NCBI RefSeq assembly: GCF_030053595.1
Contig: NZ_JASGBQ010000009.1
Coordinates: forward strand, 1 to 64,000
Direction: 5' to 3'
DNA from: Fusibacillus kribbianus
GTDB lineage: Bacteria > Bacillota > Clostridia > Lachnospirales > Lachnospiraceae
DNA: 64,000 bases
Position numbers and translations under genes: made by a program. Shown piece by piece: positions 9,348 through 13,291 of the stretch. How positions within the stretch are numbered: position 1 is the stretch's first letter; every line of letters starts with the position of its first letter. A model generated the notes under the pieces. That model had not been told where the DNA came from. It ran no database searches and worked only from the letters and a program-made list of their open reading frames with translations.

Positions 9348-11036
9348 TTAGAACAGACCTGTGATTCTGCCGTTTTCGTCTACGTCGATCTTTTCAGCAG
9401 CCGGTACCTTGGGAAGGCCGGGCATGGTCATGATTTCACCGGTCAGCGCTACGATGAAGCCTGCGCCTGCAGAGATCTTCAGGTTCCTTACGGTTACCTC
9501 GAAGTCAGTAGGAGCACCAAGCTTGGTCTGATCGTCGGTCAGGCTGTACTGGGTCTTTGCCACGCAGATCGGGCAGTTTCCATAACCCATTGCCTCCAGC
9601 TGTTTTGCCTGCTTCTGAGCGTTTGCAGTCAGGACAGCTCTCTTGCCGCCATATATCTTCTGTACGATCTGGTTTAACTTATCCTCAATGCTGGTTCCTT
9701 CCAGTTCATAGGAGAAGGTGAAGTCATTGGGCTGCTCGCAGAGTCTTACGACCTCTTCTGCCAGAGCCTTGCCGCCCTCGCCGCCCTTTGCCCATACCTG
9801 GGAAAGAACTACGTTTACGCCCAGCTCCTTGCACTTTGCCTCTACCAGAGCAAGCTCTGCCTCGGTATCGGTGGGGAACTCATTGATGGCAACTACGCAG
9901 GGCAGCTTGTATACGTTGGTGATGTTGCTTACATGCTTCAGCAGGTTGGGAAGGCCCTTCTCCAGAGCTTCCAGGTTCTCATTGTTCAGGTCCGCCTTTG
10001 CTACGCCGCCGTTGTACTTGAGAGCTCTTACCGTTGCTACGATCACAACTGCGTTGGGCTTAAGGCCTGCCATACGGCACTTGATATCCAGGAACTTCTC
10101 TGCACCAAGGTCAGCACCGAAGCCTGCCTCGGTTACGGTGTAGTCTGCCAGCTTCAGAGCCATCTTCGTTGCAGTTACAGAGTTGCAGCCGTGAGCGATG
10201 TTTGCGAAGGGGCCGCCGTGTACGATGGCAGGAGTTCCTTCAAGAGTCTGAACCAGGTTGGGCTTCAGAGCATCCTTGAGGAGTGCCGTCATTGCACCTT
10301 CTGCGTGCAGGTCATGCGCGGTAACGGGCTTCTGCTCTGCTACCTTTCCGTAGGTATAACCGATGATGATGCGGCCGAGTCTTGCCTTCAGGTCGTTGAT
10401 GTCGCTTGCCAGACACAGAACTGCCATGATCTCGGAAGCCACGGTGATGTCATAGCCGTCCTCACGGGGCATACCGTTGGTCTTTCCGCCAAGGCCGTCC
10501 ACCACGTTACGCAGCTGTCTGTCGTTCATATCCACGCAGCGTCTCCAGGTGATCTTTCTGGGGTCGATGTTCAGCTCATTGCCCTGGAAGATATGGTTGT
10601 CGATCATGGCTGCCAGCAGGTTGTTTGCTGCACCGATGGCATGGAAATCGCCGGTGAAGTGAAGGTTGATGTCCTCCATGGGAACAACCTGTGCATAGCC
10701 GCCGCCTGCTGCGCCGCCCTTTACACCGAATACCGGTCCGAGGGAGGGCTCACGGAGAGCTACCATTACGTTTTTGCCGATCTTGGAAAGTCCGTCTGCC
10801 AGACCTACGCTGGTGGTCGTCTTGCCCTCACCTGCAGGGGTGGGGTTGATAGCTGTCACCAGGATCAGCTTGCCGTTCTCTTTATCTGTTTCCTTTAATA
10901 AGTTGTAGTCAATCTTTGCTTTGTACTTTCCGTACTGCTCCAGGTATTTGTCATCGATACCTGCCTTTTCAGCGATCTCAGTGATCGGAGCCATTGTGCA
11001 TTCCTGAGCAATTTCAATGTCGCTTTTGAATCCCAT
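9348..11036 (-). CDS. fhs: Formate--tetrahydrofolate ligase
   Basis: This 562-residue cytosolic enzyme makes 10-formyl-THF from formate, THF and ATP. The P-loop [11 protein letters not shown] (65-75) and the neighbouring [11 protein letters not shown] segment are those of the family, and the length is close to the usual 556-560. It heads the C1 operon and sits behind a ZTP riboswitch, which turns expression on when 10-formyl-THF is short. The product feeds purine synthesis and, with FchA and FolD, serine/glycine interconversion or the methyl branch of acetogenesis; no carbonyl-branch genes are in view. Confidence 0.97.
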
Positions 11037-11135: not shown

Positions 11136-11170
11136 AAAAAAGGGCAACATTCAGTAACTAAATGTTGCCC
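11136..11170 (-). terminator. Riboswitch expression-platform terminator upstream of fhs
   Basis: The minus-strand stem GGGCAACATT/AATGTTGCCC is followed by six T. Its left arm begins with the GGGCAA that closes the ZTP aptamer, so aptamer and terminator compete for the same bases. Ligand binding should favour read-through into fhs. Confidence 0.85.
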
Positions 11171-11240
11171 AGACGGTCGGCTTTTTATATGGTTCTGATT
11201 CCACTGTGGTACTCCACATTTATCCGTCAGTAATCAGAAC
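11165..11240 (-). promoter_or_regulatory. ZTP (pfl) riboswitch aptamer controlling fhs-fchA-folD
   Basis: Read on the minus strand, the leader has ACTGACGGAT, a small GTGG...CCAC hairpin and, after a variable linker, GCCGACCGTCTGGGCAA. These are the two conserved halves of the pfl/ZTP motif as known from the Fusobacterium example: the CTGACGG strand pairs with CCGTC, and the CCGACCG...TGGGC core forms the ligand pocket. The motif senses ZMP/ZTP, which accumulate when 10-formyl-THF is low, and is known upstream of fhs. The promoter lies about 20 bases before it and a terminator overlaps its end. Confidence 0.92.
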
Positions 11241-11257
11241 TTTTCTTTGATGGCTTA

Positions 11258-11307: not shown

Positions 11308-12747
11308 TTAATATGCCTTGCCCCAGTAAACAAGCTTCTTGGCCGGTCTTCCGCAGACAGGACATACATCCCCGAGCTGCTCCTGCTCAAAGGGCATGCA
11401 GCGGGAGGTTGCCGTCGTATCCTCTTTGATCTTCATTTCGCAGGCCTCATCCCCGCACCACATCATTTTTACAAAGCCCGGCTTATTTGCCACGATATCC
11501 TTAAACTCCTCATACGTATGTGCCTCGTAGGTATGGCTTTCCAGATGTGCTTTGGCTCTGGCCAGCATATCCTGCTGAATGCTCTCGAGGATCTCATTCG
11601 CCTTCTCACCAAGCTCATCCAGAGACACCACGATTTTTTCCCGATTGTCACGGCGCACGATCACAGCCTGATTCTGCTCCATATCCTTGGGGCCGATTTC
11701 CACACGGATCGGAATACCACGCATTTCCTGCTCGCTGAATTTCCAGCCCGGGCTCTTGTCGGAGCCGTCCAGCTTCGCCCGAATTCCTGCTGCGCCCAGT
11801 ACGTCACGAAGCTCAGCTGCTTTTTCCATGACGCCTTCCTTCCTCTGGGAGATCGGGATCACCATGGCCTGAACAGGCGCGATCCTCGGCGGCAGCTTCA
11901 GCCCGCTGTCGTCGCCGTGTACCATGATCAGAGCGCCGATGATGCGGGTGGACATGCCCCAGGAGGTCTGGTGAACATACTGCAGCTGATTCTGATTGTC
12001 GGAATACTGAATACCAAAAGCCTTTGCAAAACCGTCGCCGAAGTTATGGCTGGTTCCCGACTGGAGCGCCTTGCCGTCATGCATCAGTGCCTCAATGGTA
12101 TAGGTGGACTGAGCGCCCGCAAATTTCTCCTTGTCGGTCTTCTTTCCTTTTACCACAGGAATAGCCAGAACCTCCTCGCAGAAATCTGCATAGATATTCA
12201 GCATCTGAATAGTTCTTGCCTCAGCCTCCTCCTCAGTGGCATGGGCAGTATGACCCTCCTGCCACAAAAATTCTGCGGAACGGAGGAAGGGACGGGTCGT
12301 TTTCTCCCAGCGGACAACGGAGCACCACTGATTGTAGAGCTTCGGCAGATCCCGGTGGGACTGGATGATCCTGGAATAAAAATCGCAGAACAGGGTCTCA
12401 GAGGTGGGCCGCACACACAGACGCTCCTGCAGGGTCTCCAGACCGCCCTGGGTCACCCATGCCACCTCAGGGGCAAAGCCCTCCACATGATCTTTTTCCT
12501 TCTGGAGCAGGCTTTCCGGAATAAACATGGGCATATATACATTCTCCACGCCTGTTTCCTTAAACCGTCTGTCCAGCTCCTTCTGGATATTCTCCCAGAT
12601 CGCATAACCATTGGGACGGATGATCATACATCCTTTTACATTGGAATATTCCACCAGCTCTGCTTTTTTCACCACATCTGTGTACCACTGGGCAAAATCT
12701 TCGCTCATGGAGGTGATGGACTCTACCAGTTTCTTTTCCTTTGCCAT
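11308..12747 (-). CDS. proS: Prolyl-tRNA synthetase, short (archaeal/eukaryal-like) type
   Basis: This 479-residue class II synthetase charges tRNA-Pro. It is the compact type without the bacterial editing insertion: class II motifs ([14 protein letters not shown], then [23 protein letters not shown]) are followed by an anticodon-binding domain and a C-terminal zinc-like domain with Cys clusters near the end ([20 protein letters not shown]). It is preceded by a proline T-box whose terminator lies about 290 bases upstream, with a repeat element in between. The ATG is preceded by AAAAGGAGAAAAG. Confidence 0.96.
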
Positions 12748-12798
12748 TTCTTTTCTCCTTTTTTATTTCCTGTGAATTTCCTTTTCGTTGTACCTTTG

Positions 12799-12947
12799 GC
12801 CTGTCGGTCGCGGGCTGGCGCGTTTCGCCTTCTACAAGCCGTGCGTACCTCCAGGCTTTCAGCCTGTCGGTCGCGGGCTGGCGCGTTTCGCCTTCTACAA
12901 GCCGTGCGTACCTCCAGGCTTTCAGCCTGTCGGTCGCGGGCTGGCGC
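12799..12947. repeat. 63-bp tandem repeat, two full copies plus a partial third
   Basis: The unit starting GCCTGTCGGTCGCGGGCTGG recurs at 12799, 12862 and 12925, exactly 63 bases apart. The first two copies are virtually identical and the third keeps about 23 bases before diverging. Each full unit contains ACAAGCCGTGC, whose complement lies at 13014-13024 beyond the array. It sits inside the proS 5' leader. It is GC-richer than the neighbouring genes and shows no credible coding function, although 63 is divisible by three and several frames stay open. Confidence 0.85.
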
Positions 12948-12953
12948 CCTATA

Positions 12954-13024
12954 CCTGCTCGCATCCGATAGCAGCTGCGTGTAAACACGCGCTGCTATCG
13001 GTTGTGAGCAGGTGCACGGCTTGT
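12954..13024. repeat. Long hairpin flanking the 63-bp repeats (REP/BIME-like element)
   Basis: Stem segments CCTGCTC, CCGATAGCAG and GCGTG (12954-12981) pair in order with CACGC, CTGCTATCGG and GAGCAGG (12986-13012) around a TAAA loop. The next bases GCACGGCTTGT (13014-13024) complement the ACAAGCCGTGC of each repeat unit. Together with the tandem array it forms one foldable element of about 230 bases. I infer a dispersed intergenic repeat of this lineage; no mobility gene is present. Confidence 0.75.
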
Positions 13025-13033
13025 AGCTTTCGC

Positions 13034-13067
13034 GAAAGAAAATCCCTTGTTCCGCATGGAACAAGGG
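13034..13067 (-). terminator. T-box terminator upstream of proS
   Basis: CCCTTGTTCC (13053-13044 as read on plus) pairs with GGAACAAGGG (13058-13067) and the stem is followed by ATTTTCTTTC on the minus strand. It lies directly after the T-box sequence and competes with the antiterminator. Confidence 0.85.
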
Positions 13068-13291
13068 ACCGAAGTTTCGGCGGTACCACCCTTATTAACC
13101 GGATGATCCGGTTCTCTCTTTTCCCCGATATCGCCGGGGCTGCGCCATATTTTCATATGGGGCTCCAAGGCAGGTTCAGCAGGCTGTATCAGAAGGGCTT
13201 TCCAGCTTCCGCCCTCTCTCTGGACTGACCGTGACCGCTTACTAATCCTCTTCATCGCCACGTTTTGGCGTATCAAAACGCCTGAACAGAT
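13034..13291 (-). promoter_or_regulatory. Proline-specific T-box riboswitch of proS
   Basis: On the minus strand, AGGGTGGTACCGCCG (13092-13078) is the T-box sequence that pairs with the free CCA end of tRNA. Upstream, GATGAAGAGGATTAGTAAG matches the start of stem I, and GAACCTGCC carries a CCT triplet (13174-13172) in the specifier-loop position, a proline codon that agrees with proS downstream. A terminator follows at 13067-13034. Uncharged tRNA-Pro should therefore permit read-through. Exact 5' end is estimated from the promoter. Confidence 0.92.

Follow-up and report, generated by a model that had tools for sequence, protein, structure and literature searches.

A putative BOX-like structured repeat between the T-box terminator and proS of Fusibacillus kribbianus

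Described repeats and the proS leader

BOX elements of Streptococcus pneumoniae (boxA-boxB(n)-boxC) combine a hairpin-forming frame with a tandemly amplified module, a layout shared by the element described here; their termini likewise pair in the RNA, and the number of modules varies between close genomes (PMC3049150). In the pneumococcal trp operon, a BOX copy lies between two T-boxes and is co-transcribed, the T-boxes being judged still functional (PMC3049150). BOX insertion causes target-site duplications, and BOX, RUP and SPRITE are enriched between convergent genes (PMC3049150). Other systems share single traits with this element: Correia, ERIC and RUP type MITEs are structured, non-autonomous and affect host mRNAs (PMC3049150), REP/BIME sequences are short, palindromic, co-transcribed intergenic repeats, and Clostridiales-1 RNA (RF01699) is a dispersed multi-copy sequence of the same bacterial family, often of the same genomes.

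The locus lies in a window of 64,000 nucleotides, the whole stretch of DNA analyzed, from the F. kribbianus genome (G000). On the minus strand, the T-box leader is followed by its terminator and U-run, the element and the proS start codon, so that the placement given by the initial annotation, between T-box terminator and coding region, agrees with the coordinates:

13061..13264, minus strand: T-box leader (RF00230), 5' of proS (cmscan, 110.1 bits, E 1.9e-23)
about 13034..13067, minus strand: intrinsic terminator hairpin of the T-box with its U-run, AUUUUCUUUC (from the sequence)
12799..13033, minus strand: whole dispersed element, made of 5' leader, long hairpin and tandem 3' units (235 nt)
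12894..13033, minus strand: core element (P1-P4), matching the covariance model R1 with 126.7 bits, this copy being part of the training set
13014..13020, minus strand: 5' strand of P1, GCCGUGC, prolonged to 13026 with CUACAA
12953..13013, minus strand: P2, long variable hairpin, with a UUUA tip here and CUUG in most copies
12938..12949, minus strand: P3 hairpin, GGGC-GCCA-GCCC, preceded by UAUA
12925..12947, minus strand: 23-nt core, consisting of P3 and the 5' part of P4, common to the metK copy
12911..12933, minus strand: P4 hairpin with tandem GA/GA mismatch (CC-GA-CAGGC...GCCUG-GA-GG)
12901..12907, minus strand: 3' strand of P1, GCACGGC, within the hairpin-proximal unit
12862..12924, minus strand: hairpin-proximal 63-nt unit
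12799..12861, minus strand: the other, identical 63-nt unit, with a second 3' strand of P1 at 12838-12844
about 12756-12761, minus strand: proS Shine-Dalgarno sequence, AAGGAG
11308..12747, minus strand: proS, an essential gene for prolyl-tRNA synthetase (479 aa), 3' of the element, ATG at 12747 (homologues)

Beyond proS, a ZMP/ZTP riboswitch (RF01750, 62.8 bits) was found at 11160-11244 on the minus strand, upstream of a formate-tetrahydrofolate ligase ORF (9348-11036, minus strand).

The first base of the element, 13033, directly follows the terminator and U-run without a gap, its opening letters being GCGAAAGCUACAAGCCGUGC. Two exact 63-base repeats, a partial third and a long hairpin had been described here, and this description was accurate: 12799-12861 equals 12862-12924, and 12925-12947 repeats the unit exactly over 23 nt (tandem repeat score by TRF, 298; 2.4 units), while the hairpin arms (12946-12975 and 12991-13020) are 83% complementary over 30 nt. 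The flank of the hairpin (13014-13026, GCACGGCTTGTAG), proposed to complement every unit, is the exact complement of 12832-12844 and 12895-12907, and thus of both full units; the partial third ends before the complementary segment. The element reached a folding energy of -146.9 kcal/mol, against -97.3 +/- 5.1 for shuffled sequences (z = -9.75), far beyond chance.

From a mechanistic point of view, RNA polymerase would proceed across the element when the T-box is in its read-through state, co-transcription with proS being deduced from the position of the element. The element would then fold mostly by itself, into P1 enclosing P2, P3 and P4. The predicted joint fold of T-box and element, at -247.1 kcal/mol, compares with -235.9 kcal/mol when the two are folded separately and added up, consistent with mostly independent folding. 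P1 may be closed by either of its two 3' strands. Unlike in BOX, the amplified module bears the 3' half of the closing helix, and a single 5' strand is thus contested by several partners. None of the element hairpins has a U-run behind it, and proS should therefore still be made, translation presumably starting from its own Shine-Dalgarno sequence about 40 nt downstream of the element. The element is probably near-neutral for T-box control, riding in the mRNA and leaving the switch intact.

Copies in the genome and in relatives

About eight element loci were found in the F. kribbianus genome, namely proS, metK, pheS and about five more sites. The 63-base unit, taken as the repeat in the initial annotation, occurs entire at proS only; what recurs is its 23-nt core, which has a second occurrence in contig 45, and the element made of hairpin plus unit. 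The metK copy lies behind a SAM riboswitch (RF00162) and has seven 83-nt units, and the pheS copy lies behind a T-box and has one. All three start where the terminator U-run ends and stop short of the Shine-Dalgarno sequence. Around the long hairpin, the proS and metK copies agree at all of 50 flanking positions (100% identity), despite following a T-box and a SAM riboswitch, respectively. P2 is hypervariable among the three copies with their identical or near-identical flanks; inside the hairpin, identity between proS and metK falls to 56%. A recent subfamily has probably landed in this genome directly 3' of the proS, pheS and metK riboswitch terminators.

In ten congeners, no element was found in the proS, metK and pheS leaders wherever the leader was readable (one pheS start and a few genes were unrecovered), and some of these leaders have a short spacer where F. 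kribbianus has the element. R1 was likewise absent from the leaders of 80 other proS loci, one of which carries it directly after the proS stop codon. Together with the eight or so copies in the genome, the element-free congener leaders confirm the suggestion that a dispersed repeat of the lineage had entered this leader, and its absence from these and from the 80 other proS leaders sets it apart from the T-box.

Differences in the presence of R1 and in unit number were seen in another genus. At pfk, genome G329 and its near-identical sister G332 carry R1 four bases 3' of a -10 box, with four and three units, respectively, and nine congeners of G329 retain the host promoter without the element; the -10 box had been considered as a part of the element, an idea dropped for pfk because the element-free congeners keep the same promoter. 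At pncB, most of the R1 copy of G329 is absent in G332. Direct repeats CCGCTTTGCGGGGA bound the region missing in the pncB leader of G332 (L212, L213), a hint that recombination between repeats removed or added it.

The copy between ntpB and ntpD is retained in G329 and five congeners, one of which lacks its 3' part; G336 has kept a remnant, and the site is cleanly empty in G340. The copy is also resident in a second genus, and ten of its pairs changed on both sides (16 cells, against 4.9), which suggests more than a parasite, although gene conversion from other copies could be an alternative source of these compensatory changes. Its 5' border is the ntpB stop codon, and the first 13 positions of the R1 model there are thus host sequence. 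The coding end of ntpB (GGTAAGCAGTAA; L206, L208) resembles the R1 5' consensus (GCGTAAGCAATGA), which could reflect target preference or chance.

Conserved structure and distribution of R1

The R1 covariance model was built from nine copies, from F. kribbianus and other genera, whose alignment has 31 invariant columns. It comprises four helices: P1, GCCRUGC/GCAYGGC; P2, a long variable hairpin with a CUUG or UUUA tip; P3, GGGC-GNNA-GCCC after UAUA; and P4, a hairpin with tandem GA/GA. Cells changed on both sides of a pair numbered 66 in this alignment, against 22.7 in shuffles, and 1074 against 325 among 112 R1 matches, an alignment fitted to the model and so biased towards it, with far lower values in sliding controls. 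Covariation in the four helices is indeed very strong. G-U pairs outnumber A-C pairs (85 to 18), which indicates that the strand that folds, be it RNA or single-stranded DNA, runs in the same sense as the downstream gene. P1 (7 bp) is paired at 96.5% and present in nearly all copies, being longer in a few. The outer borders of R1 are those of the model, and its exact ends are uncertain because of the amplified 3' half and the host coding sequence at ntpB; the true left end may be P1.

R1 matched 170 of 299 genomes of the bacterial family, judged to be Lachnospiraceae by its named nearest relatives. Eight genomes with full counts gave 5 to 29 matches, including extra units of single arrays; similarly, several of the 19 matches in one complete genome are additional units of one array. 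As copies, the numbers ranged from 0 to about 26, the latter in G064, the highest among the fully counted genomes. In a class-level sample, 23 of 391 genomes carried R1, ten of the 23 being outside Lachnospiraceae; R1 thus occurs only rarely in other Clostridia. All matches came from Clostridia samples; the model found no match in the phage and plasmid collections, and the exact core pattern occurred in four viral contigs. None of the Rfam models reached its cut-off on the R1 copies scanned, and a relaxed threshold yielded only miRNA-type chance matches to the hairpin of the proS element. No published description of such a repeat in Lachnospiraceae was found in the openly accessible literature, and R1 is apparently a large undescribed repeat family of these bacteria. 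R1 would be a structured-RNA repeat family common among a major group of gut bacteria. In several cases a copy separates a riboswitch from the gene under its control, and models of T-box and SAM leaders in this group should therefore expect inserted modules.

Insertion position and competing explanations

R1 copies abut transcription signals. A -10-like hexamer lies 3-8 bases upstream of 25 of 101 copies, whereas shifted positions gave 2-5. About a dozen copies adjoin a T-run on their 5' side, and these include four T-box leaders as well as two SAM leaders from different genera. Orientation agrees with that of the downstream gene for 66 of 94 copies (p = 1e-4), or 63 of 82 after removal of a CIRCE-linked group, gene calls following a simple longest-ORF rule; the p values for position and orientation are optimistic, as the counts include related copies within genomes. 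With this orientation, and with terminators and promoters immediately adjacent, the way in which these repeats spread becomes a testable question. The CIRCE-linked subgroup lies beside a CIRCE-like heat-shock operator near hsp20 or clpB in many genera, several of its copies with a tyrosine integrase opposite (L034, L040, L042-L047, L054, L056; also L022, L023, L036, L046).

These features make it probable that the element is a non-autonomous, BOX-like structured intergenic repeat that entered in the sense direction immediately after terminators, -10 boxes and stop codons and is co-transcribed. Like BOX, R1 has many dispersed copies per genome and an internal array of variable module number. 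R1 would thus consist of a fixed hairpin module and a tandemly amplified module, carried in untranslated regions and spread by an enzyme acting in trans; its mobility is deduced from the number of copies, the existence of empty sites and the recent subfamily. No transposase was recognized by eye among the genes near closely spaced R1 pairs (L073, L130/L131). Differences from the described repeats should be noted. Unlike BOX, RUP and SPRITE (PMC3049150), R1 shows a clear sense bias, lies upstream of genes and is not enriched between convergent genes. Unlike BOX and the Correia, ERIC and RUP type MITEs, it shows no target-site duplication: matching 5- and 6-mer flanks were not enriched where the model starts (z 1.9 and 0.7), nor did they peak consistently at other offsets. 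Compared with these MITEs, moreover, most copies appear to have no terminal inverted repeat longer than the 7-bp P1, the true ends being uncertain.

A less probable explanation, which nevertheless deserves consideration, is a cis-regulatory or mRNA-stabilizing leader RNA recruited by the host, adding a second layer of control after the riboswitch through decay, processing or translation. The excess of G-U over A-C pairs, which points to structure on the sense strand, and the orientation towards the downstream gene would fit such a role, as would the starts directly after -10 boxes (many of the 25, however, being related copies in one genome), the repeated occurrence after SAM-metK leaders (two genera) and after T-boxes (four loci), and the compensatory changes at ntpB-ntpD. 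Against this, the same leaders do without the element in all ten congeners, R1 is patchy across genomes with no common gene function, and unit number differs even between near-identical genomes.

More speculatively, and in our view rather improbably, R1 may insert into DNA opened by transcription, just past -10 boxes and stop codons and at terminator U-tracts, with non-template polarity and without target-site duplication, the host then maintaining the RNA as a modular 5' leader. If true, repeat spread would be coupled to transcription bubbles and would supply ready-made leader structures to riboswitch-controlled genes.

It is quite unlikely that the element, for which we favor a BOX-like repeat, is simply Clostridiales-1 RNA. 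Both have a closing helix, a long hairpin with a CUUG tip and two more hairpins, and RF01699 scored 24-39 bits (best 38.6) on several R1 copies, using all four helices. However, every R1 copy scored below the RF01699 gathering cut-off of 48 bits, the R1 model reached at best 15.2 bits on 30 loci of true RF01699 members, and RF01699 gave no match in the F. kribbianus genome at E 10 and none reported for the proS element at E 5. The two also differ in sequence, ends, P3 and P4, and in target-site duplication: RF01699 copies (L171-L200) end in TGATR...YATCA and are flanked by 5-6 bp duplications in 18 of 26 cases, against 7.3 expected. RF01699 members exceeded the cut-off in 86 of 200 genomes, many with at least 13 copies. 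Being dispersed, with defined ends and target-site duplications, Clostridiales-1 has the appearance of a transposable repeat, which suggests that this Rfam "sRNA" is such a repeat and not an ordinary sRNA gene. R1 looks like a sister or convergent family without the duplications.

The REP/BIME-like label proposed initially, with mobilization by a REP-associated tyrosine transposase, is very unlikely to apply. The element is intergenic, palindromic and multi-copy, but its four-helix RNA with a hypervariable long hairpin and an amplified 3' half differs from the REP palindrome, TnpA-REP (NF047646) had no match in the F. kribbianus genome or in the highest-copy genome G064, and its presence was not associated with that of R1 among 200 genomes (42/116 vs 33/84, Fisher p = 0.66). 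Retron, group II intron and self-cleaving ribozyme were dropped on layout, with no reverse transcriptase seen nearby and the wrong helix order. That the element, which adjoins the T-box terminator, is an integral part of the proline T-box leader is hardly credible, given congener T-box proS leaders without it (L149, L150, L151) and its occurrence behind a SAM riboswitch and at loci without riboswitches.

Finally, several congeners have a different hairpin repeat, of the TTTGTTTCATAGGAAACTGCGTTCCTATGAAACAAAAATGCTCCGCAG type, at the very position that the element takes in F. kribbianus, immediately after the riboswitch terminator of proS, metK and pheS leaders (L150, L160, L161, L162, L142, L143). 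In the arms of this TTTGTTTCATAGGAAACTGCGTTCCTATGAAACAAAAATGCTCCGCAG-type repeat, the U-run pairs with an A-run.
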